Virus record (IMG/VR): IMGVR_UViG_3300042868_005081
Coordinates: 1 to 22,208 of that record
Length of the DNA stretch: 22,208 nt
Source of the DNA: a virus
Direction: 5' to 3' (one strand)
This document shows positions 255 to 21,914 of this stretch, piece by piece; position 1 is the stretch's first letter; every line of letters begins with the position of its first letter. Position numbers and translations under genes: made by a program. Below the pieces are notes generated by a model. That model saw nothing but the letters and a program-made list of their open reading frames with translations. It was not told the DNA's origin and ran no database searches.

Positions 255-781
255 GCGCGAAGAAACAACCATTGAAGAAGGCCCGACACGACGCCGATAC
301 GGTCACGACATCTCGGCTGGCTGAAATCTTCGGCATCAACCGAAAGACGCTGGCTCAATGGCGCAAGGAAGGCAAAAGCGTGCCGGACAAGGTAAGTGGC
401 AAAGAGCCGCTGGCGGAATGGCGCCGATGGTTTGAGGCAAACCCTGACGCTGGGCATTTCGATGGCAAGCCAAGCAAGAGCCGGGAGGAGTTGCTGGCGG
501 TAAAGGTTGCGGTTGAGATCGATCTACTTGAGATCAAGCGTGACAGGGAGCGAGGCAAACTAATTCCACGCGCCGAGGTCGAGGAACTGCTTGTTCAGAT
601 CGCCATGGCTATGCAATCCTATCTTCGCCGGTATGAGCGCGAGATTCCAGCCTTGTGCCTTGGGCTTGCACTTTCGCAATCGACGCCGCTTGTCAAAGCC
701 CGCACCCGCGAGCTGCAAGACGTGCTGGCAAACACCACCACCGATTTCTGGAACGAACACCCTGAGAACGAAACAGCATGA
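251..781 (+). CDS. Terminase small subunit, Nu1-like
   Basis: This 176-residue protein would recognise phage DNA and bring it to the large terminase. Residues about 17-40 read as a helix-turn-helix (TSRLAEIFGINRKTLAQW). A long charged helical segment follows at about 80-115, with the VAVEIDLLEIKRDRERGKLI pattern typical of Nu1/phage terminase small subunits, where it helps dimerisation. The ATG at 251 is preferred over an upstream in-frame ATG at 209, because 251 gives the 4-nt ATGA overlap with the zinc-ribbon gene and starts just before the DNA-binding domain. It overlaps the large terminase by 4 nt (778-781). Recognition rests on motif pattern and synteny. Confidence 0.85.
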   Translation: MSAKKQPLKKARHDADTVTTSRLAEIFGINRKTLAQWRKEGKSVPDKVSGKEPLAEWRRWFEANPDAGHFDGKPSKSREELLAVKVAVEIDLLEIKRDRERGKLIPRAEVEELLVQIAMAMQSYLRRYEREIPALCLGLALSQSTPLVKARTRELQDVLANTTTDFWNEHPENETA

Positions 782-2523
782 TTGAGACTTTTGCCCGCGC
801 CATGAAAGCACCGTCCGACCTTCACCCGGCAGACTGGTGCGCGGAGCATGTCTATGTCGAGAACTCGGAACGCTCCGACAAATTTGACCCATCGCAAACT
901 CGCTGGTGGAGAAAACCGATGGGACATTATGCCGATTATGAGACGCGGCAGATGGTTTGCTTGATGCCGACTGGCACTGGCAAAAGCACATTTTTTGAGG
1001 CGATCAACTGCTGGATCGTGTCTGAATCGCCGGGATCTGTGCTTTACGCATCCATCACTGACCCGAACGCTGAGCTGTGGGGCGAGACGCGATTTTTAAA
1101 AGCTGCCAAGAAGTGCAAGCCGCTGGATCACCTATGGCCGCGCAACGCCCGCAACTCGGTGCGCCGGGATGCGATCATTTGGCCGCACATGTTTATGGTT
1201 CTCGGTGGAGCCAACCGCAGCAATTTCCAAGAGGTATCCATCACGCACGGACACGGAGACGAGGCATGGGAGTGGAAGCACGGCATGGTCCGAGAATGGA
1301 ATGCTCGAAGCCATAACCGCGAAAACCGAAAGTTTGTTCTCGTATCGCAAGGCGGTGAGATTGCCAGCGAGGACGGCCACGGGCTGACTAGCGAGCTGCA
1401 TGCGGAGCATGACAAATGCCGGAAGTGGGATTTCGCGTGGCAATGCCCGGAGTGTTCGCATGTCCAAGCGTTTGCGTTCGAGTCACTGAAATTCCCAGAA
1501 ACCGGAACGAATCAAGAGCGGGCAGATGCGACCGTCATGGTCTGCGCTGGATGTCAGCATGAGTTTGCGGATGACATCGCTACGCGCAGGCAGTTGCATG
1601 ATTCGTATCAGCAAGATGATGGCTACCTTTTGACTAGTGACACTGGACAACGTGGATACGAAGGATTTCACACCGACAGGACAGCGGTCTGGTGGCAACC
1701 TTGGGGCGATGACGTTCTGCGAAAATTATCCGCTGACCAGCAAGCCAAAGCAGGAGACTACACCGCTCTAAAACAATGGACGCAGAAAGACCGTGCGCAG
1801 GGCTGGACTGATAACCTGCAAGCATCGGAAATAATCTTAAAGCCTAGCGGATATACCCGCGCAGATTTCACCGAAGGGCAGAAGATCGACGGCGAGGTAG
1901 TTAGGTTTTGCACAATTGATGCTGGTGGCGATCATTTTTGGCTTCGCATCCGAGCATGGTGCCAGGGCGGAGAATCAAAAGGCTTATTTTTTGGCTACAT
2001 CAACAGCGATGCGGAGTGTGAAGAGATCCGCGCTTGCTACAACGTCGAGCCGAAGCACACATTCCTTGATGTCGGTTTTGACCAGGAGCGCATGGCTGGC
2101 ATCATCGTTAAATATGGATGGCAGGGGATGAAAGGCGATGGCAACCGGAAAACCGGCTGGGACTGGCCACTTAAAGGTGATGATACAAAAAAAGAAGTCC
2201 GGCTATACTCCAAACGCTGGGTTGCACTTTCCAAGGAAAAAAAACCGGCGACTTGCTGGCACATTGCTACCGAGCCGATGCAATACATTCTGCAAAGGCT
2301 GATGTCAGGAGAGGGAGCTGCGTGGCTAGTCGAGGACGACGCGCCGCCCAGCTACGCAAAGCAACTAAACGGCGAACGACTCGAAACAGCAAAGGATGCA
2401 AAAGGTCGCGAGATTAAAAAATGGGTTAGGCACGGAGCGAACCACGGTCGTGACACCGAGGTCTATCAAGTGGCTGCGGCTCTCATGTTCAGAATCTTCA
2501 CCCCACCTAAATCTGATGAGTAA
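778..2523 (+). CDS. Terminase large subunit, GpA family (ATPase and nuclease)
   Basis: This 581-residue protein is the packaging motor ATPase and genome-cutting nuclease. The Walker A loop is PTGTGKST at 64-71. A Walker-B-like GDE lies at residues 160-162. A zinc knuckle formed by CPEC (223-226) and CAGC (256-259) is characteristic of the GpA family. The C-terminal nuclease region has candidate metal-binding acidic residues at Asp381 (TIDAGGD) and Asp431 (FLDVGFD). The length is near the 600-640 typical of GpA. It is translationally coupled to the small subunit through ATGA. GpA-type terminases usually generate cohesive ends, so a cos-type packaging site is likely somewhere, but none was identified here. 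Confidence 0.95.
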   Translation: MIETFARAMKAPSDLHPADWCAEHVYVENSERSDKFDPSQTRWWRKPMGHYADYETRQMVCLMPTGTGKSTFFEAINCWIVSESPGSVLYASITDPNAELWGETRFLKAAKKCKPLDHLWPRNARNSVRRDAIIWPHMFMVLGGANRSNFQEVSITHGHGDEAWEWKHGMVREWNARSHNRENRKFVLVSQGGEIASEDGHGLTSELHAEHDKCRKWDFAWQCPECSHVQAFAFESLKFPETGTNQERADATVMVCAGCQHEFADDIATRRQLHDSYQQDDGYLLTSDTGQRGYEGFHTDRTAVWWQPWGDDVLRKLSADQQAKAGDYTALKQWTQKDRAQGWTDNLQASEIILKPSGYTRADFTEGQKIDGEVVRFCTIDAGGDHFWLRIRAWCQGGESKGLFFGYINSDAECEEIRACYNVEPKHTFLDVGFDQERMAGIIVKYGWQGMKGDGNRKTGWDWPLKGDDTKKEVRLYSKRWVALSKEKKPATCWHIATEPMQYILQRLMSGEGAAWLVEDDAPPSYAKQLNGERLETAKDAKGREIKKWVRHGANHGRDTEVYQVAAALMFRIFTPPKSDE

Positions 2524-2842: not shown

Positions 2843-2877
2843 TTTGACTTTCGCCAGTATGCGCTAAATCCTTTCAC
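2843..2877 (+). promoter_or_regulatory. Late-promoter-like element, copy 1 (exact)
   Basis: The element TTTGACTTTCGCCA lies at 2843-2856, followed 21 nt later by the ATG at 2878. Read as a promoter, the -35 is TTGACT (2844-2849). After a 17-nt spacer comes AATCCT (2867-2872), then 5 nt to the ATG, so a transcript would begin at or next to the start codon. The same 14 bases occur at 9494, 11043 and 16087, and with two changes at 5183. No Shine-Dalgarno sequence lies between the element and the ATG. The promoter role is inferred from recurrence and fixed spacing. Confidence 0.6.
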
Positions 2878-3156
2878 ATGGCATCAGCGTTTCGACAAGC
2901 TCAAGGTATCTTTCGCGCAATACGCGGAAACTCTGCGCTGATTGAAGCGCAAAAAGCCGCATATCAGGCGGCTGCGGTTGCACTGACATCAACGACCGGC
3001 GGCATTCAAGTCGAATCTGCTACCGTCAACGGACAATCTTTTTCTGGAAAAGCAACTTCTACGCCGGCTGAACGTTTTGACGTGTTGCAAATACTTATGG
3101 GCATGATTGAACGCGATTCTGCCGGAAACCGCACCACCCGCGCACGATTCTTATGA
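2878..3156 (+). CDS. Head-completion / head-tail joining candidate (gpW position)
   Basis: This 92-residue protein lies between the terminase and the portal, the position of lambda gpW (68 aa), which closes the filled head and receives the tail. The N-terminal half is helical and Ala-rich (about 1-38). A short beta region with the pattern VNGQSFSG follows at about 50-57, then a helix at 63-80, broadly the size and pattern of gpW-like joining proteins. The assignment rests mainly on position and size. The gene starts 21 nt after copy 1 of the repeated 14-bp element and has no Shine-Dalgarno sequence. Its stop overlaps the portal start (ATGA at 3153-3156). Confidence 0.6.
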   Translation: MASAFRQAQGIFRAIRGNSALIEAQKAAYQAAAVALTSTTGGIQVESATVNGQSFSGKATSTPAERFDVLQILMGMIERDSAGNRTTRARFL

Positions 3157-4610
3157 TACTTGACCAATTCGGAAATGCTGCAATATCTTATGTGAGCCGC
3201 AGGCCCTCACGCCACGCCAATTTAGGCGGCGGCGACAGGCCAAGCGAATCGCGCAACCTCCGCGATTTGCATAAGATCGTCACGAAATATGACAGGCAGA
3301 CGCTACAATCAGCAAGCCGAACGTTATATCTTAACTCTCCACTGATGGTCGGTGCATCTAATCAAATCGGAATTTACGCCGTCGGCAACGCATGGCTACC
3401 GACCTATAAGGGAAAAGACAAAAACTTTGGAGACATTGCGAAAGAGTGGCTAAAGGATGAATGGTATCCGATTTGCAATATCATTGGAGATATTGCAGAT
3501 TTCACCTCAGACATGTTTATCGATTCAGTTTCGATGGATCGTGACGGCGAGGTTTTTGAATACTTCACGTCATCGCCAAGCGGCTACCCACAAATCCAAC
3601 AAATCCCCTCGCACCGTATAGAAAGCGGCGGATTACCTGACGGCATACAGCAATCTGGCAAATACAAGGGATTTGATCTTTATGATGGTATCGTTTATTT
3701 CCCCAACACATCGATCCCAGTCGCTTACTCATTGTGCGACGTTGACGGCAAGCACAAGCAGTTTATTGATAAAAAATTTATCCTGCATGTCTTTGACCGC
3801 TACTGGCCCGAGCAACGCCGAGGACTTCCGCTCTTTTGGCATTCGCTGAACAACCTTCGCGACATCATGCAGAGCGAAGAGTGGGAACGCATGAACTTGC
3901 TTTCCATGTCATCGCTCAATTACACCGTTGAAAATGAAACTGGTGGACCAGACATGGAAGAACCCGGATACGAGCCAGCAGTTGACTGCGGCGAGCTTGC
4001 CGTTGAATTCTTACAAGGTGGTCGGATCATGTATGCAAAAGCCGGAGCTGGTGAGAAGATCACGCAGCATCAAAATTTCCGCCCTGGCAACCCATGGCAT
4101 GAGTTTTACGACATGCAGGCACGTCAATGTCTGGTCGGTGCATGCTTACCTGCAACCCTCTGGAAACCATCTGGACAAGGCACAGCGCAGCGCGAGGACA
4201 TCGGCAAGGCTTGCAGGTTTGTTGAGGATCGCCAATCGACGCTGGAGAAAATCGGCAAGTGGAGGGTCACCAAGGCAATCGCTTGGGCGATGGAAAACGG
4301 GCGCGTGCCGATGTCAGATCAATGGTATAACTGGGGCTTTACCAAGCCGCCAAAACTTACGATTGACGATGGACGCAGTCTTAAAGAGAAAATGGCACTT
4401 TACAAAGACGGACTGGTCAACGCCACGTCCATCATGGGCGAGCTATCTACAGACTTCGATGAATCTATTGACGAGCGCACCGAGGAAGCTGCCAAGCTTC
4501 TCGTGAAGATCGCAGAGAAGAATGCAAAATACGGGGTTGATATTGACCCGCGCAGCGTGCGACTTGTTACATCAAACGAACAACCAATCCAACAACCATT
4601 AGAACCATGA
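3153..4610 (+). CDS. Portal protein, lambda type (gpB-like)
   Basis: This 485-residue protein is expected to form the dodecameric ring at the head vertex through which DNA enters and leaves. Support comes from size, position after the terminase and before the prohead protease, and the lambda-portal pattern in the N-terminal third (RTLYLNSPLMVGASNQIG at about 57-74, then the DRDGEVFEYF segment). A typical C-terminal region contains the GxGTAQRED stretch at about residues 343-350. The extreme C-terminus is Gln/Pro-rich. It overlaps the gpW-like gene by 4 nt upstream and the protease gene by 4 nt downstream (4607-4610), indicating translational coupling. Confidence 0.9.
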   Translation: MILDQFGNAAISYVSRRPSRHANLGGGDRPSESRNLRDLHKIVTKYDRQTLQSASRTLYLNSPLMVGASNQIGIYAVGNAWLPTYKGKDKNFGDIAKEWLKDEWYPICNIIGDIADFTSDMFIDSVSMDRDGEVFEYFTSSPSGYPQIQQIPSHRIESGGLPDGIQQSGKYKGFDLYDGIVYFPNTSIPVAYSLCDVDGKHKQFIDKKFILHVFDRYWPEQRRGLPLFWHSLNNLRDIMQSEEWERMNLLSMSSLNYTVENETGGPDMEEPGYEPAVDCGELAVEFLQGGRIMYAKAGAGEKITQHQNFRPGNPWHEFYDMQARQCLVGACLPATLWKPSGQGTAQREDIGKACRFVEDRQSTLEKIGKWRVTKAIAWAMENGRVPMSDQWYNWGFTKPPKLTIDDGRSLKEKMALYKDGLVNATSIMGELSTDFDESIDERTEEAAKLLVKIAEKNAKYGVDIDPRSVRLVTSNEQPIQQPLEP

Positions 4611-5656
4611 TCACGATTGAAAACAAAGGCGGAAAAGTAAAGCTCAACGAAGCTGTTACCGGAGACAGCATTAAGCGCATGATTGACGAGATCGGGCGAC
4701 TGTTCGGAGCAAAAGCATCGGCAGAAGGCGCGAATTTCGGTGAGATTATGAACGCAGCGCAAAACGCTGTTGACGTTCTCGACATCGAAATCAATTCCCC
4801 CGGCGGCAGTGTCTTTGACGGATACACTATTTATCAAGAAATTAAATCCCTTCGTGATCGCGGTGTGATCGTCAATGTGACAATCACCGGGATGGCTGCA
4901 TCGATGGCATCCGTCATTGCAATGTCTGCTGATAAAATCTCTATGGTTAAACATGGGCGCATGATGATCCATGACGCATCCAGCGGAGCAGTCGGCAACG
5001 CGCAATCACTTCGCAAGACCGCTGACCTTTTGGAAGCAATCAGTGAGGACATAGCCGTAATTTACAGTGATCGCACCGGAATGGATAAAACTAAAATCAG
5101 AAAAATGATGATGAGCGAGACATGGATGAATGCAAGTGAAGCACTAGAAAACGGCTTTGTTGACGAAGTTCTAGGCGTGCAAGTTGACATTCGCCAAGCA
5201 TCGGAGGAATCTTCGCATATGAGCTTTCTTAATCGCCTCACAAATCCATCTTCCGAAGAGTCTATCGAGCGCATCGCTGCACTTGAAGCAGACATCACCG
5301 CGCAAGCCGCAGAATTTCAAGCAAAACTTGAAGCTGCTGAAATGGCACTTCAAGAAGCTGCCGAAATTACCGCCCAGAACATTGAGCTTCGCATTCAAGC
5401 AGAACTAGTTCCAACCTTGGAAGCTAAAATTGTCGAGCTGGAAGCAGCGAGAGCAATCAATGCCGAGAAGATTGACACCGCAGCCGCTCAAAAGCTCGCA
5501 GCGATGGGACACGGCGAGCCGCTGGATCTAGGTTCAAACTCACCAATCGAAGAAACTAAAAATCACCTTCAAATTCTCCAATCACTTACAGGCAAAGAGC
5601 GCAGCGAATACTACGCCGCACACTCTGCTGAAATCCGTTCACAAATCTCTAAATAA
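4607..5656 (+). CDS. Prohead protease, ClpP/S49-like, fused to C-terminal scaffold domain
   Basis: This 349-residue protein combines a serine protease with a scaffold. Residues about 1-195 are ClpP-like. The INSPGGSVFDG loop is at 62-72, the nucleophile Ser99 sits in GMAASMAS, and His122 sits in MIHDAS. The third catalytic residue is not certain; acidic residues lie around 155-160. Residues about 215-290 are a Glu/Ala/Gln-rich coiled coil of the sort found in scaffold proteins, followed by a short C-terminal domain. The arrangement matches lambda gpC with its nested scaffold Nu3. The enzyme should mature the prohead and remove the scaffold. An internal start at 5219 could make the scaffold alone. 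Confidence 0.92.
   Translation: MITIENKGGKVKLNEAVTGDSIKRMIDEIGRLFGAKASAEGANFGEIMNAAQNAVDVLDIEINSPGGSVFDGYTIYQEIKSLRDRGVIVNVTITGMAASMASVIAMSADKISMVKHGRMMIHDASSGAVGNAQSLRKTADLLEAISEDIAVIYSDRTGMDKTKIRKMMMSETWMNASEALENGFVDEVLGVQVDIRQASEESSHMSFLNRLTNPSSEESIERIAALEADITAQAAEFQAKLEAAEMALQEAAEITAQNIELRIQAELVPTLEAKIVELEAARAINAEKIDTAAAQKLAAMGHGEPLDLGSNSPIEETKNHLQILQSLTGKERSEYYAAHSAEIRSQISK
5183..5218 (+). promoter_or_regulatory. Late-promoter-like element inside the protease gene, copy 2 (12 of 14 bases)
   Basis: GTTGACATTCGCCA at 5183-5196 differs from the exact element at two positions, and one change turns the -35-like hexamer into consensus TTGACA. A 17-nt spacer is followed by GAATCT (5207-5212), identical to the hexamer in the 11043 copy, then 6 nt and ATG at 5219. 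A Shine-Dalgarno GGAGGA also lies at 5203-5208, 10 nt before that ATG, which is unusual for this window. Both signals point to expression of a free scaffold. Function is inferred. Confidence 0.55.
5219..5656 (+). CDS. Nested scaffold protein (internal start in protease gene, Nu3-like)
   Basis: Starting at Met205 of the protease, the same frame encodes a 145-residue protein made of the coiled-coil region and the C-terminal tail, without the catalytic domain. The start is supported by GGAGGA at 5203-5208 and by the 14-bp element whose end lies 22 nt upstream, the same geometry as at four other structural gene starts. Lambda makes its scaffold Nu3 from an internal start in gene C, so the arrangement has precedent. 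The free scaffold would guide capsid shell assembly and then be degraded by the protease domain of the full-length protein. The nested product itself is inferred. Confidence 0.6.
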   Translation: MSFLNRLTNPSSEESIERIAALEADITAQAAEFQAKLEAAEMALQEAAEITAQNIELRIQAELVPTLEAKIVELEAARAINAEKIDTAAAQKLAAMGHGEPLDLGSNSPIEETKNHLQILQSLTGKERSEYYAAHSAEIRSQISK

Positions 5657-5664
5657 TTAATCAA

Positions 5665-6558
5665 ATGGCTACCATTTCATTCAACGATACAATCTTTGCG
5701 CAAGAAGCCCTTAAAGCCTTCACCGCAAAGCTCGCCCCGCTCCGTGCATTCTCACGCTCTCTTGACGATTCCGCAAGAGGCAAAGGTGATGCCATTGTGG
5801 TCCCTTTCATCTCCGCGATGACCGCAACGACTTTCAACGCAAGTTCCGCCAACTATCAAACTGGTGGCGGCGCAATTACTCACAACACGGTCAACCTTAA
5901 CCAGCACAACATCGTCAGCTTCGACATCACCGACCTCCAGAATGCAAACAGCTCTGGCGCACGTTTTGACGAACTTGCAATGCAAGCTGGCCGCGCACTT
6001 GGTCAAAAAGTTCTGGAAAACATCTGGAAGCTGATCACCACGACCAACTTCGGAGCCGCTTCTGTGACGACTTCGGAATCCAGCTATGGATTGGCACAAC
6101 TCATCGCACTCCGCGCTGTCCTTGCCGGTCGCAATGTAGACGTTGATCCTGGCGTTTGCTCTTTTATTCACAACACCGTTGTAGGTGCATCGCTGCTTGG
6201 TTCTACCAACGTGCTTCAAGCCTACGCAATCGGTGATAACCAAGCAGCACGTCAAGGCACGCTTGGTCAGCTTGTCGGTTTCCCAACTTACGAAACCAAC
6301 ATTCTTCCAACCGCTGCAACTTCGCTTGTTTGCTTCGCAGCTCACCCTGATGCAATCAGCATTGCAATGCGTTATCTTGAGCCGCAAGCCGGTTCCGAGT
6401 ATCTCGCAGTCGAGCGCGCAGCCGATCCATCCGGAATCGTGATGGGGTATCGCCGCAGCTTCGACACAGCAACTGGTCAAATGTTCGGTGCTTTCGAGTG
6501 CCTTTACGGAACCGCAACTGGTTTGACCCTCGGTCTTGCATTCGGCACAAAACCATAA
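5665..6558 (+). CDS. Major capsid protein, probable HK97 fold
   Basis: This 297-residue protein is placed as the head shell subunit by position right after protease/scaffold and before a strong terminator, and by composition: many Ala, Thr, Asn and Gly, few charged residues, long beta-rich stretches. The N-terminal helix (FNDTIFAQEALKAFTAKLAP), the mid-region with ELAMQAGRALGQKVLENIW and the C-terminal MGYRRSFDTATGQMFGAFE segment fit coat proteins of the HK97-fold type. No separate decoration gene lies between scaffold and capsid. There is no Shine-Dalgarno sequence before the ATG; the upstream region is AT-rich (aataattaatcaa). Confidence 0.85.
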   Translation: MATISFNDTIFAQEALKAFTAKLAPLRAFSRSLDDSARGKGDAIVVPFISAMTATTFNASSANYQTGGGAITHNTVNLNQHNIVSFDITDLQNANSSGARFDELAMQAGRALGQKVLENIWKLITTTNFGAASVTTSESSYGLAQLIALRAVLAGRNVDVDPGVCSFIHNTVVGASLLGSTNVLQAYAIGDNQAARQGTLGQLVGFPTYETNILPTAATSLVCFAAHPDAISIAMRYLEPQAGSEYLAVERAADPSGIVMGYRRSFDTATGQMFGAFECLYGTATGLTLGLAFGTKP

Positions 6559-6587
6559 TTCTCTGGTGTAGTTCGTAGTTCATAAGA

Positions 6588-6619
6588 CGTCGCCCCGTAA
6601 AAAAGGGCGGCGTTTTTTT
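6588..6619 (+). terminator. Rho-independent terminator after the capsid gene
   Basis: The arm CGTCGCCC (6588-6595) pairs with GGGCGGCG (6605-6612), with one G-T wobble, across a loop rich in A, and is followed by seven T residues at 6613-6619. It lies 29 nt after the capsid stop codon. It separates the head genes from the glycosyltransferase insert and would boost or isolate capsid mRNA. It is the only clear intrinsic terminator seen in the window. Confidence 0.88.
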
Positions 6620-6630
6620 ATTGTCAAAAA

Positions 6631-8841
6631 ATGAATAAATCCCATATTCGATTCAGACATATGAAAAAAGATACAATCTCACTTTCCGTAATAACTGGAA
6701 ACTGCGAAAACTACATCGAAAGGTTTCTTGATAAATTCCAACACCATTTCGATGAGGTCGTTATAATCCGGGCAATCGGCAACCAGAAACCAGACCGAAC
6801 GCTTGAGATTGCGCAAAGTCGCGGCTGCATCATCGGTGAGTATTTCAACAAGATCGGACATTGGAACCACGTTGACGACTTTGGAGCAGCTCGCAACTTA
6901 TCAGCAAACCGAGCTACCTGCGACTGGATCATGTGGGCCGACACCGATGACATTATGACAGAAGATTCAGGTGAGCAAATCCGGCGCTTAATTTCCGACA
7001 TCAACGACAAAGCCGTTGACGGCATTTTGATGCGCTACGTCGTGCCGGAGGATAACATCATCAACTGGAGAGAAAGGATCTGGCGCAAAGGATCTGCCAT
7101 GTGGGAACATCCGGTGCATGAATGCTTGAAATTTAATGAAGGCACGAATCACATGAGATTCGACGGCGCCGAAATCATTCATGCCAGCGAAAAACGCAGC
7201 GCATCTAGAGATGAAAGGAATCTAAGGATCCTCGAATCCATACCGGAAAAGAAAAGAACCGTGTCGCAGAAATTTCACACCTTCCAAAGTTTGATTGCAT
7301 TGGATCGGAACGACGAGGCGATCCAAGCAGCTCTTGAGTTTGTGCAATCCGAAGGAGTCGGAAGAAATGAACTTTACGAAGCCTATTTCCAACTCGCTAG
7401 ACTTGCCGATGATGATGGCAGCAAAAAACAAATGCTTGTGGCTGCACTTGCAACAGATCCAAGCCGGCGCGAGGCATACGGAGAGCTCGGATTGGCATCA
7501 ACAATTTCCGACCCACAGTCAGCGCTTGGCTGGACTGAGGCAATGCTGGGGCTGGAGATGCATCCAGAGCCGCCATGGAACCTTCGCAGACCTTATTATG
7601 GCTCACTCGGCATCGGGCTGCGTGGCATGGCTCTACGCGCAAACAACCGCCGAGAGGAAGCCGACGCAATCGAAACCAATCATTTTATTCGGAACGGTGC
7701 GAAAATTTCACTTCTTCACGCTACACGAGGACGACCAGCGCAAGCCTGGCGCTCGAGAATGGAATGGCTGAGATCCGCAACCAATCCAGATTCGATTGAG
7801 CATATCTTCGCTATTGATGTTGACGACGTGGATTCATACCCATTGACCAACGCCAGATGCGTCATCAGCACGCACAACTCGGGGTGCGTTGGTGCATGGA
7901 ACGCAGCGGCCCAATCATGCAAGGGCGAGATACTAATTCAACTCAGCGACGACTGGAAACCATTCCAAGGTTGGGACGAAGCGATCATTCGCGCCATCGG
8001 CGACACATCGAAGCCTAAAGTTTTGGCGATTTCTGACGGTTTCAGAAAAGATGACCTGCTCTGCATGGCGATCATCACCCGCGCACGTTACATTGAGCAG
8101 GGACATTTCTTTCATCCAGAGTTCTTTTCGATGTTCTCAGATAACTGGTTTTCATACAAAGCCGCGCAGGACGGCGTAATCATTGACGCAAAAGCAGAAA
8201 TCGTTTTCGAGCATGTTCACCCGGCATTTGGGAAAGCAGAGTCAGATCAGACCTATGAGCGCAGCAATGATCAATATCACTACCTGACTGGGCAGGGCAT
8301 TTTTAAACGCTTAGTTTCCTCCTTGCCGGTATCGACAGATATTCACGGATGGTTTGATTTCCGAGATGTTTATGATTACGTCGCAAAAACAATCCCAGAA
8401 TGCGGGCAGTTCGTAGAGGTCGGAGCTTGGAAAGGCAAAAGCGCGGTCTATCTTGCAGACCGGCTGGAGGACATCAAAAAGCTGATCAAGTTCTCTGTCG
8501 TCGATACCTTCAAAGGCGATGACGAAACCGGCAGGATTGACGTGTTGGAGGAGTTCAAAAACAACCGAGGACCACGCGAGATTTCGATCATTGAGGGAGA
8601 CAGCGCAGGATCGGCGGCACAATTTGCTGACGATTCGCTTGACGGCGTTTTCATCGACGCTGCGCATGATTACGCCAGCGCCAAGCGCGACATTGAGGCA
8701 TGGCTTCCAAAGGTCAAAAAAGGCGGATTCTTTGGCGGCCACGATGCTGACTCGCCGGGCGTATCAAAAGCATTGGAATCACTAGGCATCAAATACAACA
8801 TGGCCGGCAGATGCTGGATCAAACAACTTGAAAAACTATGA
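6631..8841 (+). CDS. Multidomain GT2 glycosyltransferase - helical - GT2-like - SAM methyltransferase
   Basis: This 736-residue protein has several modules. Residues about 17-185 are a GT2 domain: Asp104-Thr-Asp106 forms the DxD metal/nucleotide-sugar site, and the RERIWRKGSAMWEHPVHE stretch (147-164) is typical of TPR-associated GT2 enzymes. Residues about 195-350 are helical, probably TPR-like. Residues about 356-530 are a second GT-A-like unit with DVDD (396-399) and SDDW (439-442). Residues about 575-736 form a class I methyltransferase of the Methyltransf_24 type: VEVGAWKGKS (595-604), Asp625, and IDAAHDY (675-681). It would transfer and methylate sugars on an unknown acceptor. The start could instead be ATG 6661, just before the GT2 fold. 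Confidence 0.88.
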   Translation: MNKSHIRFRHMKKDTISLSVITGNCENYIERFLDKFQHHFDEVVIIRAIGNQKPDRTLEIAQSRGCIIGEYFNKIGHWNHVDDFGAARNLSANRATCDWIMWADTDDIMTEDSGEQIRRLISDINDKAVDGILMRYVVPEDNIINWRERIWRKGSAMWEHPVHECLKFNEGTNHMRFDGAEIIHASEKRSASRDERNLRILESIPEKKRTVSQKFHTFQSLIALDRNDEAIQAALEFVQSEGVGRNELYEAYFQLARLADDDGSKKQMLVAALATDPSRREAYGELGLASTISDPQSALGWTEAMLGLEMHPEPPWNLRRPYYGSLGIGLRGMALRANNRREEADAIETNHFIRNGAKISLLHATRGRPAQAWRSRMEWLRSATNPDSIEHIFAIDVDDVDSYPLTNARCVISTHNSGCVGAWNAAAQSCKGEILIQLSDDWKPFQGWDEAIIRAIGDTSKPKVLAISDGFRKDDLLCMAIITRARYIEQGHFFHPEFFSMFSDNWFSYKAAQDGVIIDAKAEIVFEHVHPAFGKAESDQTYERSNDQYHYLTGQGIFKRLVSSLPVSTDIHGWFDFRDVYDYVAKTIPECGQFVEVGAWKGKSAVYLADRLEDIKKLIKFSVVDTFKGDDETGRIDVLEEFKNNRGPREISIIEGDSAGSAAQFADDSLDGVFIDAAHDYASAKRDIEAWLPKVKKGGFFGGHDADSPGVSKALESLGIKYNMAGRCWIKQLEKL

Positions 8842-9056
8842 GTCACAAAGGAAGCTGGAGCCGAGTTAAAGATACAAAAGCGTGGAATGAATGCCCACTT
8901 TGGAAAAACAAAAAAAAGAAAAATGATGAAACTAAGCATACTGACACCGACCATTCGCGGCAGGGAGAAGCAGCTCTACGCCCTACAAACCCGCATCGAG
9001 GAACAGAGTTCCGCGCTGAAGAGTTCGGGGCAGGTCGAGCATCTAATCTTGAGTGA
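8838..9056 (+). CDS. Very small basic ORF with a slippery A-tract; 3' end uncertain
   Basis: The ATG at 8838 overlaps the stop of the large glycosyltransferase (ATGA), a sign of a real coupled start. The first 25 or so residues (GSWSRVKDTKAWNECPLW, then Lys-rich) look like a small phage protein. After about residue 28 the zero frame merely shadows the next glycosyltransferase and ends at 9056 (72 codons). A canonical slippery heptamer A_AAA_AAG lies in frame at 8912-8918. A -1 shift there would end translation at TGA 8924-8926, overlapping the next gene's ATGATG and giving about 29 residues. No function is recognised. Confidence 0.4.
   Translation: MSHKGSWSRVKDTKAWNECPLWKNKKKKNDETKHTDTDHSRQGEAALRPTNPHRGTEFRAEEFGAGRASNLE
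8912..8918 (+). promoter_or_regulatory. Candidate -1 slippery heptamer A_AAA_AAG
   Basis: Eight A residues at 8910-8917 followed by G at 8918 are read in the 8838 frame as AAA AAA AAG. This is the A_AAA_AAG slip site known from bacterial -1 frameshifting. The -1 frame stops at 8924-8926, directly overlapping ATG codons at 8923 and 8926. The run could equally cause transcriptional slippage or indels. Frameshift function is inference. Confidence 0.35.
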
Positions 9057-9498
9057 CAACCGCACCCGCAGCATCGGGGAGAAACGGCAGGCATTGGTTG
9101 ATATAGCCAATGGCGAATATATTGCGTTTTGCGATGACGATGACGACGTATCTGATGATTACGTTTCGGAGGTATTGAAAGCCATTGAGACAAGAGCCGA
9201 TGTGATCACTTTCAATCAGAAAGCGATTTACAACAATTTGGAAAGCGTGGTGCATTTTGGGATCAAAAACCAAGACGGTCAGTTTAACCCGGGCGGCATT
9301 ACCCTGCGCGGACCGTGGCACATTTGTGCTTGGAATCGCCAGAAGGTCAAAGGCTGCGTCTTTGGGTTCAGCAATTACGGCGAGGATCTAGTTTGGTGCC
9401 ATCAAGCCAGAAAGCGGATCAAGACCGCGCATCACATCAGCAAGGTGTTGCATACCTACATCCACGACGCAGCCACCACCGCCGCTCCCGAGCTTTGA
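8923..9498 (+). CDS. GT2 family glycosyltransferase
   Basis: This 191-residue protein has the GT-A layout of a small GT2 enzyme: an N-terminal SILTPTI strand (4-10), a run of five Asp (71-75) in FCDDDDDVSDDY supplying the DxD-type metal site, and NYGEDLVW (151-158) with the acidic ED catalytic pair near the end. It lacks a membrane anchor. Two adjacent ATGs (8923, 8926) can start it; an upstream in-frame ATG at 8887 is less likely because it falls in the body of the preceding ORF. It probably works with the upstream multidomain enzyme on the same glycan. Its TGA stop (9496-9498) lies within the TTTGAC of the next promoter-like element. Confidence 0.85.
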   Translation: MMKLSILTPTIRGREKQLYALQTRIEEQSSALKSSGQVEHLILSDNRTRSIGEKRQALVDIANGEYIAFCDDDDDVSDDYVSEVLKAIETRADVITFNQKAIYNNLESVVHFGIKNQDGQFNPGGITLRGPWHICAWNRQKVKGCVFGFSNYGEDLVWCHQARKRIKTAHHISKVLHTYIHDAATTAAPEL

Positions 9499-9528
9499 CT
9501 TTCGCCACAATCCAGAAAAAACTACTTC
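9494..9528 (+). promoter_or_regulatory. Late-promoter-like element, copy 3 (exact)
   Basis: TTTGACTTTCGCCA at 9494-9507 ends 21 nt before ATG 9529. TTGACT (9495-9500), a 17-nt spacer, AAAACT (9518-9523) and 5 nt lead to the start codon. The element contains the stop codon of the upstream glycosyltransferase. It would restart transcription for the tail genes downstream of the glycosylation insert. No Shine-Dalgarno sequence is seen. Confidence 0.6.
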
Positions 9529-9864
9529 ATGTCTATTTTGAGCGATTTTATTGATACCGTAGCACCTATTGCTCGAACCGTGATCGGTGCGGAGACGCTA
9601 TCCATTGCTGGTGGCACAGCTATCAGCGGGACTTATTCAGAAGCCAGACATTCACGGGATTATGAGGATGGCGGATTTGAGCGAGACGCAATGCTTGATT
9701 TCGTAGTTCAAACAGCTACGTTCTCGACTGCCTACACCGCAGCGGTCACCAGCTACCTCGGCAAAGCAGCCGCAGGCCGTGGCGATACTTGGCGCGTATC
9801 ATCCATCAGCAAAGGCGCGTTTTTCGTCACGGTAGGGCTGGTATCTACCAATAAATCGGCATGA
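9529..9864 (+). CDS. Head-tail joining protein candidate (gpFII position)
   Basis: This 111-residue protein has the size and position of lambda gpFII (117 aa), the connector added to the filled head for tail attachment. It is mostly beta, with a GDTWRVSSISKGAFFVTVGLVS C-terminal segment that resembles small phage joining proteins forming beta-barrel interfaces. The first gene of the tail block, it starts 21 nt after an exact copy of the 14-bp element. It overlaps the following gene by 4 nt (9861-9864). The assignment is from synteny (FII-Z-U-V order), size and general pattern, not from a diagnostic motif. Confidence 0.6.
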   Translation: MSILSDFIDTVAPIARTVIGAETLSIAGGTAISGTYSEARHSRDYEDGGFERDAMLDFVVQTATFSTAYTAAVTSYLGKAAAGRGDTWRVSSISKGAFFVTVGLVSTNKSA

Positions 9865-10628: not shown

Positions 10629-11047
10629 CAACTGACAAACTACTCGACGCATGGAAACGATGGATTCAACGCGGAACCACCCTGCCGGTGGCAATGCGCG
10701 ACACTGAGGACACAAAGGAATACCCTGGGGTTTACATCGAGGGCGACAGCGTTTCTCGATTTGAATCAGGAGGCGTTCAGGATGGGAATATCTTCAAGAT
10801 TGAATTGGAGACTAAGCTGGTCACAACGCCAGGAGAAGATGCACAGCAAGCCACCAGCAAGGCCGCGCATGATGCTTTGCGAAACGCTCTTGCCGAATAT
10901 ATTGAATCGGACCAAGCAGAAGCATGGATGGACGGGCAAATTGGAATCCGTGTATTCCAGTTGCTTGTCAACTCACCAGAAACAACCGAAGCAGATGGAT
11001 ACCGTGTGACGACTTGGAAGGTGACGGCTATATCTTGCGCAATTTGA
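10625..11047 (+). CDS. Tail terminator protein candidate (gpU position)
   Basis: This 140-residue protein is similar in size to lambda gpU (131 aa), the ring that ends tail-tube growth and joins the head. It has an N-terminal helix, an acidic central part with beta strands (IFKIELETKLVT at about 56-67), a helix rich in Ala and Glu at about 75-100, and a final strand (GYRVTTWKVTAIS), fitting the alpha/beta fold of tail terminators. It immediately precedes the tail tube candidate, as in lambda. The stop TGA (11045-11047) is embedded in the TTTGAC of the next promoter-like element. Confidence 0.65.
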   Translation: MTTDKLLDAWKRWIQRGTTLPVAMRDTEDTKEYPGVYIEGDSVSRFESGGVQDGNIFKIELETKLVTTPGEDAQQATSKAAHDALRNALAEYIESDQAEAWMDGQIGIRVFQLLVNSPETTEADGYRVTTWKVTAISCAI

Positions 11048-11078
11048 CTTTCGCCACGGTTGGCTGGAATCTTCATTC
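11043..11078 (+). promoter_or_regulatory. Late-promoter-like element, copy 4 (exact)
   Basis: TTTGACTTTCGCCA at 11043-11056 ends 22 nt before ATG 11079. TTGACT (11044-11049), 17 nt, GAATCT (11067-11072) and 6 nt precede the start. It overlaps the stop codon of the tail-terminator gene, as copy 3 overlaps the stop of its upstream gene. Position before the tail tube gene suits a strong late promoter, since the tube protein is needed in many copies. Confidence 0.6.
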
Positions 11079-12674: not shown

Positions 12675-13940
12675 ATGGCACTCACCACTACATTCACCTT
12701 AAAATTTGCAGGCGCCGCCGTAGAGCGAGGACTTGCTCGCGTGCAATCGGCTTTCAAATCGCTCGGTGGCGTGGCGATGAAGGTGGGCAAAAGCTTGCTT
12801 TCACCGTTTGCAGCTCTGACTGCACTACTTGGAACCGGAGCATTGGTATCTGGGCTAATGTCTTTTGTTAAAGGATCATCTTCAGCAGCTGCATCCGTAG
12901 AGGATTTAACCATTCAACTTGAAGTTTTGACAGGTAGCTTTGAAACAGCCAAAAGCCTTATCAAGCAATTCCGTGAAGAAGAAAAAAAATCCGCTTTGAA
13001 TCTTGAAGATTATTCAAAGGCAGCAAAAACAATTTTGGCTTTTGGCGGATCAGTTCAAGACATCATGCCGACTCTCAGAATGCTTGGCGATGTGTCCATG
13101 GGCAATTCTGACAGGTTTGGAAGCCTTGCACTTGCCTTTGCCCAAACTACTGCGGCGGGCAGACTCATGGGTCAGGAGGTTTTGCAATTCGTCAACGCTG
13201 GATTTAACCCGCTTGAACAGATTTCACGAGATACTGGTCGATCAATGAAAGACTTAAAAAAAGACATGGAAGATGGAGCAATTTCCGTTGCCATGGTCAA
13301 ACAAGCTTTTGTAAACGCTACAAGTATAGGAGGAAGGTTTTTCCGCGCAATCGACAAGGGAAGTTCTGGAACAAACGCCAAGATCAACCAGTTTGGAGCA
13401 GCAGTAACAGAACTTAAAGTCGCGTTCGGAACCGGATTTAATGACGGATTGAAAGTCGCGTTGGATGCGGCAAACACTAAGCTGCCTCAACTCTTGGCAA
13501 AGTTCGCCGAGTTTGGGACTTTGATTGGAAAAACAATACAGGAAGCGGTTGGTGGAGATATGACGCGGCTTGCAAGGGTTGGAGAGCTAATTGGGACAGC
13601 TATCGCTGGAGGAATGAAAATCGGCATAAAAGCAGGAGGTCGAGAAATTGCACAATCATTTTGGGAAACCTTGGAAAACATCAACCCAATTAGAATGACA
13701 GCTTTGGGAGAGAAACAAGGCAAAATTAGTGATGCGTTTAAGGAAAACAAAGGGGATGCGATTAGAAAAGAAATTGAATCTTTGGTGGAAACCCTTCGTC
13801 CCATGGCCAACCTTGCAAAAAATCCAATCCCATCAAAATACTTGGGTGGAGCAGTGGAACCACCATCAAGCACGATGGATGGAAACAATGTAGTTAAAAT
13901 CCTCAGCAGCATCGACAGAAAACTTTCACCACAACCCTAA
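12675..13940 (+). CDS. Tape measure protein (short)
   Basis: This 421-residue protein sets tail length and probably assists DNA entry. Residues 41-65 are a hydrophobic, membrane-like segment. Residues about 75-250 match the tape measure domain, with the signature LALAFAQTTAAGRLMGQEVLQ followed by FVNAGFNPLEQIS (151-183). The rest is helical, ending in a short tail with HisAsp-poor, Ser/Pro-rich sequence. At about 1.5 angstroms per residue, a known relation for siphovirus tapes, the tail would be near 60 nm, under half of lambda. The C-terminal half (13500-13900) is more A-rich than the flanking genes. Confidence 0.88.
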   Translation: MALTTTFTLKFAGAAVERGLARVQSAFKSLGGVAMKVGKSLLSPFAALTALLGTGALVSGLMSFVKGSSSAAASVEDLTIQLEVLTGSFETAKSLIKQFREEEKKSALNLEDYSKAAKTILAFGGSVQDIMPTLRMLGDVSMGNSDRFGSLALAFAQTTAAGRLMGQEVLQFVNAGFNPLEQISRDTGRSMKDLKKDMEDGAISVAMVKQAFVNATSIGGRFFRAIDKGSSGTNAKINQFGAAVTELKVAFGTGFNDGLKVALDAANTKLPQLLAKFAEFGTLIGKTIQEAVGGDMTRLARVGELIGTAIAGGMKIGIKAGGREIAQSFWETLENINPIRMTALGEKQGKISDAFKENKGDAIRKEIESLVETLRPMANLAKNPIPSKYLGGAVEPPSSTMDGNNVVKILSSIDRKLSPQP

Positions 13941-16086: not shown

Positions 16087-16121
16087 TTTGACTTTCGCCA
16101 CTTGACGGGGAAATGTATTTT
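16087..16121 (+). promoter_or_regulatory. Late-promoter-like element, copy 5 (exact)
   Basis: TTTGACTTTCGCCA at 16087-16100 ends 21 nt before ATG 16122. TTGACT (16088-16093), 17 nt, AAATGT (16111-16116) and 5 nt precede the start. It sits in the only sizeable intergenic gap of the tail block (16030-16121). No terminator is seen in this gap. The spacing rule favours 16122 over the upstream ATG at 16113, which would fall on the -10-like hexamer. Confidence 0.6.
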
Positions 16122-16985
16122 ATGACTCTTTCCGGCACAGAAGTTCGTTACGGCATGATTGCTACGGCCGATCCCGGCGCAGTAAATGTTTCAGGCTCTC
16201 AAACAATCGGGACAGCACTCGCATCTGTTATTTACACAAACGCGCCCACCGTCGCCTATTCGATGGCGATGATCATTCAGCCAGCTGGCGTGCTTACACT
16301 TAACACGTCCACCGGCGCAGTCACAGGCACGGCAGCAGGAACTGCACAAGTCGAGACAGCTACGATTGTTGCAGCCGCTGGCGCAACCACGGCAGGCGAC
16401 TTAAACGTGACAGTGACATCTGCCCTTGTGACCGGCTCGCCCTTGCTCGTCCCCGTCGCACTGCTTTTGACAGATAACACCGCCAGCCTAGTTGCGACGA
16501 AGGTCAGGGCTGCCTTAAACGCCACCGCTGCCATCACCGCGCACTACACCGTCGGTGGATCTGGCGCGACTTACTCTCTCACCACCAGCGCGATAAACCA
16601 CGCTGCAAACGATGCTACGCTGAACATGGCACATGCCAACGGGACATGCGCGGGGATTACCACCGCAGCAACCTCGGCAGACACAACGCCAGGAGTCGGC
16701 ACTACCCGAGCCTATAAATTTAACGGCACCGCATGGAACGCAACTGACAACGAAGGAATCGCATTGCCGACTATGACGAAGCTGCATTCGATGCTGCTCC
16801 GCTCTGCATCGACCAGCGGCTCGGTGGCTATCGGCGAAGGTACCAACCTGCTGACTATTGCGGCGCCGTTTGTCCACTTGCAAGCATCGCAAGCAGGTGC
16901 GCATCCATTTACAGGCGATTCGGTTACATTTACAGGTGCAACCGCACCAGTCACTTTGATTCTGGACATCCACGCAGGAGAATAA
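16122..16985 (+). CDS. Ala/Thr-rich virion surface or tail protein
   Basis: This 287-residue protein has very high Ala and Thr content and few charged residues, with alternating beta-strand patterns. Residues about 80-165 contain a unit (TATIVAAAGATTAGDLNVTV, then VPVALLLTDNTASLVATKVRAAL) like a repeated beta-domain met in phage tail and decoration proteins. The final 80 residues look like a separate beta domain. The start at 16122 is chosen by the fixed distance to the 14-bp element; ATG 16113 would add three residues. It begins the fibre operon. An exact role (tail needle, decoration or second tube-like protein) is not shown. Confidence 0.65.
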   Translation: MTLSGTEVRYGMIATADPGAVNVSGSQTIGTALASVIYTNAPTVAYSMAMIIQPAGVLTLNTSTGAVTGTAAGTAQVETATIVAAAGATTAGDLNVTVTSALVTGSPLLVPVALLLTDNTASLVATKVRAALNATAAITAHYTVGGSGATYSLTTSAINHAANDATLNMAHANGTCAGITTAATSADTTPGVGTTRAYKFNGTAWNATDNEGIALPTMTKLHSMLLRSASTSGSVAIGEGTNLLTIAAPFVHLQASQAGAHPFTGDSVTFTGATAPVTLILDIHAGE

Positions 16986-20958: not shown

Positions 20959-21690
20959 ATGAGCTTTAAAAAATTCATCGTGGGAACCGACAATCACGGC
21001 GAGCTGGGTTGCCCAATCGCAATCAAGAAGTTCCTGGACTTCTGCGATGATTGGAAGCCTCATTACAAGATTTGCCTTGGCGACGTGTTTGACTTTGCCT
21101 GCCTTCGCCGGGGAGCATCACAGGAAGATAAAGCAGACGGCGTGAGCGAGGACTTCCACGCCGGCATGACCTTCCTCGAAGCATACCGCCCGCACTTCCT
21201 TACGCTCGGGAACCACGACGACCGCATCTGGATGAACACGGTGAAGTGTGGCGACGGGATACTGCGTGAGCGATGCCAGGAACTCGCCTCGGCCAGCGAG
21301 CGCCGGTTTAAACAACTCAAGATCAAATGGGTACCTTACGAGGTCGATGAATACATCAAGCTACCGGATACCAACTGCAAACTTGTCCACGGCTTCCCAT
21401 CTTCAAAACACCCAGCGGCCGCGCATCATCAATACTGGGGCGACTGCATTGCGGGACACGTCCACAAGCCTGACGAATACACGGCGAGGCACATTGACAG
21501 AGGGCAGGCTTTCACCGTAGGATGCTTAGCAGACATCAAAAAGATGACTTACGCCAACCGCTACCCGGCGAAGCTCGGATGGCGTCAAGGCTGGCTCTAT
21601 GGATACATCAATACAAAAACAGGCAAATGGAACGCATGGAACGTAAAAAACGATCAGGGAACGTGGTTAAGTCCAATGGGAATCCTCTAA
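20959..21690 (+). CDS. Calcineurin-like metallophosphoesterase
   Basis: This 243-residue protein carries the metallophosphoesterase motifs in order: Asp11-Asn-His13 (DxH), Gly41-Asp42, GNHD at 84-87, His144, and GHVH at 166-169. These hold two metal ions for phosphoester hydrolysis. The substrate is not shown. Lambda encodes a related-fold protein phosphatase, and other phage members act on DNA or nucleotides. It lies after the lysis genes with a 9-nt gap, and no Shine-Dalgarno sequence is seen. Action on host signalling nucleotides or damaged DNA is speculation. Confidence 0.85.
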   Translation: MSFKKFIVGTDNHGELGCPIAIKKFLDFCDDWKPHYKICLGDVFDFACLRRGASQEDKADGVSEDFHAGMTFLEAYRPHFLTLGNHDDRIWMNTVKCGDGILRERCQELASASERRFKQLKIKWVPYEVDEYIKLPDTNCKLVHGFPSSKHPAAAHHQYWGDCIAGHVHKPDEYTARHIDRGQAFTVGCLADIKKMTYANRYPAKLGWRQGWLYGYINTKTGKWNAWNVKNDQGTWLSPMGIL

Positions 21691-21914
21691 GCGCACTTGA
21701 TGCTTTCATCAAACAGCAGGCCGCCGCAATGCAGCCGATCCAGCCAAACGAGTTTACAATCTACGACTACATAGAAAGAATGAAAGATCAAGGCGTCAAT
21801 CTCGGCGTCTGCAAAGCCAGCAGGATGTTGGATGATTTATTTAATTCTGGCGCGATTACGTCGAGAAAAGGTGTCCAGAACGGCAAGCAGCGGAACTTTT
21901 ACCGCTTCGTCTGA
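21627..21914 (+). CDS. Small probable winged-helix DNA-binding protein
   Basis: From ATG 21627 the protein has 95 residues: a basic N-terminus, a helix (SALDAFIKQQAAAMQ), and a winged-helix-like unit with FTIYDYIERM, CKASRMLDDLFNSGAITSRKG and a final NGKQRNFYRFV strand pair. This resembles short phage regulators that control late genes or replication. The frame overlaps the end of the phosphoesterase out of phase by 64 bases and is open back to 21522, where the upstream part reads as a shadow. ATG 21636 is another possible start. DNA binding is inferred from the fold pattern. Confidence 0.6.
   Translation: MERMERKKRSGNVVKSNGNPLSALDAFIKQQAAAMQPIQPNEFTIYDYIERMKDQGVNLGVCKASRMLDDLFNSGAITSRKGVQNGKQRNFYRFV

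Follow-up and report, generated by a model that had tools for sequence, protein, structure and literature searches.

Sequence evidence for a candidate leaderless late promoter inside the nested protease-scaffold gene of a freshwater tailed phage

Genes in which a scaffold is nested within the gene for the head protease are already known, from phages, where the scaffold arises by an internal ribosome start, and from herpesviruses, where it arises by an internal promoter. In phage lambda, Nu3 is made by ribosomes that start inside the protease gene on the shared mRNA. Within the Mu-like phages the internal scaffold start follows a Shine-Dalgarno sequence (PMC4378225), and in herpesviruses UL26.5 has its own promoter inside the UL26 protease coding region (PMC2949831). 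Leaderless bacterial genes are also relevant to the locus described here, as they carry a -10 box about 12 nt before the start (PMC3160421), and in Deinococcus a -10 box was found next to the start of the leaderless genes tested (PMC12340547). About 10% of the start sites of Akkermansia muciniphila, a verrucomicrobium, are leaderless (PMC4782308), and some Verrucomicrobia are poor in Shine-Dalgarno sequences (PMC10783764).

The window analysed here, the whole stretch of 22,208 nt (positions 1 to 22,208 of IMG/VR record IMGVR_UViG_3300042868_005081), is the structural region of a freshwater tailed phage, in which gene calls and Pfam and PHROG matches identify packaging, head and tail genes (Table 1). 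The protease ORF encodes 349 residues, matches Pfam CLP_protease (E 3.6e-30) and is classed by PHROG as a head maturation protease; its AlphaFold2 model matches ClpP in the PDB, and the catalytic-type serine and histidine (S99 and H122) are invariant in 35 sequences. The capsid gene begins 8 nt past the scaffold stop, and the terminator that follows it is also found in two relatives (L125 and L131). Between this terminator and the next element copy (6631-9498) lie a glycosyltransferase/methyltransferase-like gene and a second, small glycosyltransferase-like gene, their functions judged by eye, which by position resemble inserted cargo genes. Another local peculiarity was seen in the relative L126, where a stretch at 4100-5012 encoding ALNAFETELCLMRDPVDLEV... 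and the next 70-residue ORF stand in tandem repeat, the units at 4252-4464 and 4800-5012 being identical.

Table 1. Features of the window, with positions counted from its first nucleotide.
Feature	Position	Strand	Basis or remark
TerL	778-2523		
Element TTTGACTTTCGCCA and second box AATCCT, before gene 2878	2843-2877	+	
Small gene before portal	2878-3156		
Portal	3153-4610		
Head maturation protease: ClpP-like domain (residues 1-190) and in-frame scaffold domain (residues 205-349)	4607-5656	+	Pfam, PHROG, AlphaFold2, PDB fold match
Element GTTGACATTCGCCA: -35-like TTGACA (5184-5189) and TTCGCC	5183-5196	+	
GGAGGA, judged incidental	5203-5208	+	Codon 200 variation; Shine-Dalgarno motifs at background
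-10-like hexamer GAATCT	5207-5212	+	17 nt after TTGACA, 6 nt before ATG
Predicted separate scaffold, Met205 to shared stop, 145 aa	5219-5656	+	Met205 conservation, model
Major capsid protein, own element absent	5665-6558	+	PHROG major head protein
Intrinsic terminator 3' of capsid gene	6584-6620	+	-18 kcal/mol, z -3.84
Element copy and second box AAAACT, before gene 9529	9494-9528	+	
Gene with upstream element copy	start 9529		
Element copy and second box GAATCT, before gene 11079	11043-11078	+	
Probable major tail protein gene	start 11079		Tail assignment from gene order only
Tape measure	at 12675		
Element copy and second box AAATGT, before gene 16122	16087-16121	+	
Gene with upstream element copy	start 16122		

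The host is probably a verrucomicrobium, because the only named relative of the capsid is found in phage P8625 (NC_029047), which infects a Puniceicoccales strain and has the same gene order of terminase, small gene, portal, ClpP protease and coat. The coat proteins are 24.7% identical, the portals 25%, and the proteases 38% over 169 residues. This assignment stays uncertain on account of a contig of a Flavobacteriales MAG (L053; 45% identity, possibly misbinned), which is the sole host lead obtained via genome contigs.

As in the known nested genes, the scaffold domain is in frame and 3'-coterminal with the head protease. A first reading of this DNA from its sequence (the sequence-only reading) had proposed that Met205 opens a 145-residue coiled-coil protein; the ORF, the ATG and the shared stop agree with this, and the AlphaFold2 model, which shows one long helix (residues 217-299) plus short C-terminal helices, fits a coiled-coil scaffold. 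Residues 192-211, between the ClpP-like domain and this helix, are modelled with pLDDT below 50, and protein constraint on this linker should therefore be low. Met205 is invariant in 31 close relatives and is kept in at least 90% of the 35-sequence alignment, down to about 49% identity, so that a conserved internal start codon stands at the domain boundary. Moreover, a methionine heads the helical domain even in relatives with an unrelated linker and without the upstream element described below, for which reason the internal start looks older than the element. The invariance of Met205 supports the suggestion of a separately started scaffold, and the second half of the protease gene is probably expressed as a protein of its own.

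The element in question, TTTGACTTTCGCCA, is 14 bp long and occurs in four exact copies in the window; a fifth copy with two mismatches, GTTGACATTCGCCA, is found within the protease gene, where it falls in the linker preceding Met205, and all five are on the plus strand. From each copy it is 35 or 36 nt to an ATG that opens a gene; for the internal copy this ATG is Met205, as the sequence-only reading had observed. At 16087 the element places the gene start at 16122 and not at the first in-frame ATG, 16113. When the element, the second box (see below) and the ATG are all required, these five copies are the only matches in the window with up to 5 mismatches, and simulations returned zero matches with up to 4. 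Relatives were sought among viral contigs, where searching with the protease yielded 48 loci and searching with an alignment as query yielded 80. The 48-locus set holds 100 forward copies with at most 2 mismatches against a single reverse one, and of its 57 unique copies all except 4 show this spacing of 35 or 36 nt to an ATG; among the relatives the element stands ahead of the scaffold, the small gene upstream of the portal, and genes like those starting at 9529, 11079 and 16122. Upstream of TTTGAC no conservation is seen within 50 nt. RNA structure was rejected as the basis of the element, as no secondary structure is predicted in it. Termination-reinitiation was rejected as a general reading as well; the TTTGA of the element supplies an upstream stop codon at 9494 and 11043, but the copies at 2843, 16087 and 5183 do not lie at a stop.

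A second conserved box, absent from the sequence-only reading, is found between the element and the ATG. It is a hexamer of the form xAxxxT that begins 17 nt after TTGACW and is followed by 5-6 nt and the ATG; in the protease gene it reads GAATCT and overlaps the supposed Shine-Dalgarno sequence. Among 86 unique copies of the phage group the A is present in 84 and the T likewise in 84, and a pyrimidine precedes the ATG in 85 of the 86, as against 13 of 17 at the other starts of the window. Two phages of the 9529-like class carry an additional nucleotide between the hexamer and the ATG, and in them the hexamer keeps its register with TTGAC and not with the ATG, which counts in favour of a promoter. 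An exact-pattern scan of viral contigs that required TTTGACTTTCGCC and the ATG and left the box free yielded 31 new copies, 14 of them before homologous genes of the phage group (homology judged by first residues). The box is present in 14 of these 14 and in none of the 17 copies in unrelated settings; the latter look like chance matches, and use of the element outside the phage group was accordingly rejected.

Taken with the pyrimidine-purine step at the ATG, the arrangement TTGACW, 17 nt, xAxxxT has the geometry of a sigma70-type promoter whose transcript starts on the ATG. The -35-like TTGACA and the 17-nt spacer follow the sigma70 pattern, and the hexamer, 11-12 nt before the start, has the A and the final T of TANNNT, its first T being absent. 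A plain E. coli sigma70 promoter was rejected, since a standard E. coli sigma70 scan misses the element sites. The conserved TTCGCC behind the -35 is not explained by sigma70 alone, which suggests that sigma70 is not the sole reader of the element.

Selection on the copy inside the protease gene was examined in 31 distinct sequences of that gene, all at least 70% identical. Their codons 193-196 (5183-5194; GTT GAC ATT CGC) show 0 synonymous differences where about 506 pair differences were expected; no other four-codon window is as low, and nowhere else in the gene do two or more codons without synonymous change (zero codons) adjoin. Shuffling the zero codons placed all four at 193-196 in about 1 of 10,000 trials, which, as the sequences are related, is not a strict probability. 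The replacements V193F and I195F fall only at positions where the non-coding element also varies, and the GAC and CGC of the element never change codon among the 31 relatives. Codon 202, which is part of the hexamer, is TCT in all 31, TCT being 15% of serine codons, and the codons between the element and codon 202 vary. The comparison of synonymous sites across 5183-5218 that had been suggested as a check finds codons 193-196 and 202 constrained and the codons between them variable, and the claim that the element is real, and selected as nucleotides within coding sequence, is borne out by codons 193-196. Synonymous change is also low past Met205, in 5231-5269 (codons 209-221), which a promoter does not explain.

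We consider it likely that a late promoter lies inside the protease gene and gives rise to a leaderless mRNA for the scaffold and, with it, the capsid. A dedicated internal promoter had been proposed before, and it is still the likeliest function; what has to be amended is its extent, as the 14-bp element would supply the first of the two parts of a -35/-10-like promoter. This phage-specific late promoter, composed of TTTGACTTTCGCC, about 11 nt, xAxxxT, 5 or 6 nt and ATG, would head several structural genes, and one copy of it would be embedded in the coding sequence for the flexible linker that joins the ClpP-like domain to the scaffold domain. RNA polymerase would start the transcript at the A of the ATG of Met205, and the leaderless mRNA would encode the 145-residue scaffold and then the capsid protein and end at the terminator near 6600. 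That scaffold and capsid share one transcript is inferred from the 8-nt gap between their genes, the lack of an element before the capsid gene and the terminator behind it. The full-length protease-scaffold fusion would be translated from transcripts begun upstream, for example from a longer one that starts at 2843 and runs through portal and protease, and the outcome would be little fusion and much scaffold, that is, scaffold in excess over protease.

The same features could be attributed to an RNA-level signal, either one that recruits ribosomes without a Shine-Dalgarno sequence or a regulatory one, which would act on a long late mRNA and allow internal initiation at Met205 with no promoter of its own. 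The element always lies on the sense strand, immediately ahead of start codons and at a nearly fixed distance from the ATG, as would suit such a signal; relatives that have no element still keep the internal start, and a distant group of phages, considered below, has a spacing of 20-27 nt to the ATG that is easier to reconcile with an RNA signal than with a -35. We nevertheless hold this reading to be unlikely, in view of the A and T of the hexamer, whose 17-nt register with TTGAC holds although the position of the ATG shifts by one and which are the two bases most important in a -10 box, and in view of the pyrimidine-purine step at the ATG and the lack of RNA structure in the element. It is improbable, too, that no separate scaffold exists and that only the full-length fusion is made and then cut by its own protease, the conserved stretch being due to protein sequence or to the recent spread of a module. 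A motif (V/F/L)D(I/F/T) does recur at this place in the distant phages L116 and L096, without fixed distance, and the low synonymous change continuing past the start would suit this reading; yet the phenylalanine replacements sit exactly where the non-coding element varies, the GAC and CGC codons are fixed, the methionine is kept across unrelated linkers, and other copies of the element lie outside the protease gene.

The sequence-only reading had further taken GGAGGA, 10 nt before the ATG, as the Shine-Dalgarno sequence of the scaffold, and if this were so ribosome entry would, as in lambda, take place at Met205 of the shared mRNA. The hexanucleotide and its spacing are indeed present in the window, but its role as a working Shine-Dalgarno sequence did not withstand comparison: just 3 of the 31 distinct relatives have GAG at codon 200, from which the hexanucleotide arises, and among the relatives whose sequence was inspected L005 alone, 100% identical at this place, shares the exact GGAGGA with the window. 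Moreover, a Shine-Dalgarno core stands before 2 of the 22 gene starts in the window against a background of 11%, so that such motifs are not above background in this phage. GGAGGA was therefore rejected as a Shine-Dalgarno sequence, and entry of the lambda type, already largely refuted by conservation, is very improbable.

The preferred reading, a promoter inside the protease gene, meets a difficulty in distant relatives. A distant group (L096, L101, L109-L112, L115, L053 and L114) has TTTGACA before the small gene, the scaffold and a tail gene, at only 20-27 nt from the ATG, which is too close for a -35; this is counted against the promoter model, which leaves the spacing unexplained. TTTGACA may serve some other purpose in these phages; otherwise the resemblance would be due in part to chance and, in the scaffold, to the protein sequence (FDT). 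In the same group the ATG that follows TTTGACA lies within inverted repeats such as AGCCATTAATGGCT and GCCATTTCAAATGGC (L053:190, L096:10650, L112:4015, L115:526), which could be operators or start-codon hairpins. At the scaffold of the distant phages L098, L121, L116, L099 and L122 the element is absent, several distant relatives keeping the methionine there, and a search of element-less relatives for repeated words gave nothing clear. The second box is weak in L039, L041, L091 and L095. Three intermediate relatives (L039, L092 and L087) have an element variant of their own, at -35/-36 and with a weak second box; it precedes the scaffold and, in addition, one or two genes elsewhere, and speaks for a co-evolving factor.

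It is possible, and we put it forward tentatively, that these sites represent a phage-specific class of late promoter in which an extended -35, TTTGACTTTCGCC, is read by a phage-encoded or recruited factor together with the host RNA polymerase, and from which leaderless structural mRNAs are made, one of them starting inside the protease gene and setting the ratio of scaffold to protease. Among the early-region proteins searched, which cover part of the early regions, no sigma factor or RNA polymerase was seen, only a weak PadR-like hint. A small protein at the end of the late region (window 21522-21914; L124 13159-13437) gives a weak PadR-like winged-helix hint, below the Pfam cut-off, and is a possible candidate for a late regulator.

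Among described phages P8625 offers a close comparison, as it has TTGACA or TTGCCA 36 nt before the starts of gp08, gp13 (start re-read), gp15 and gp22. Its element differs in that it runs on into a palindrome, GTATCC-N7-GGATAC, and its protease gene showed no promoter of this kind ahead of an internal start. The repeated element of P8625 (L133), consisting of TTGACA, the palindrome and ATG, occurs at 5426, 9634, 10750, 15573 and 17515, before homologous structural genes, with TTGACA at -36 in 4 of 5; inside the protease gene the palindrome recurs exactly, at 8089, there with neither a -35 nor a following start codon. The leaderless genes of Deinococcus and actinobacteria resemble the present sites in having a -10-like hexamer some 12 nt ahead of the start and in lacking a Shine-Dalgarno sequence (PMC3160421, PMC12340547), whereas the phage has a long conserved -35 block, TTTGACTTTCGCC, and is without the first T of TANNNT. 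If the promoter reading is right, these sites would define a leaderless late promoter for the phages of the Verrucomicrobiota, a phylum from which very few phages have been isolated.

With C/Nu3 of lambda and I/Z of Mu the locus has in common a scaffold that forms an in-frame, 3'-coterminal part of the head-protease gene and begins at an internal start codon. It differs in that theirs depend on ribosome entry on a shared mRNA, while here a promoter is predicted and no conserved Shine-Dalgarno sequence precedes the internal start; for this reason the phage arrangement is a variant of the nested protease-scaffold gene and not the same mechanism. In the herpesvirus UL26/UL26.5 pair the scaffold is likewise encoded in frame by the 3' part of the gene for the maturation protease and has an internal promoter, which in the phage is predicted from sequence only. 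Conversely, the herpesvirus protease has the assemblin fold and is expressed by eukaryotic transcription, whereas the phage protease is ClpP in family and in fold, so that the predicted arrangement works like UL26.5 without being a member of the herpesvirus family. A search of the titles and abstracts of open-licence papers found no internal promoter for a phage scaffold, and to our knowledge this would be the first phage counterpart of the UL26.5 promoter. As the apparent internal promoter of this phage has a form that can be read from sequence, it becomes testable whether phages and herpesviruses converged separately on this solution.
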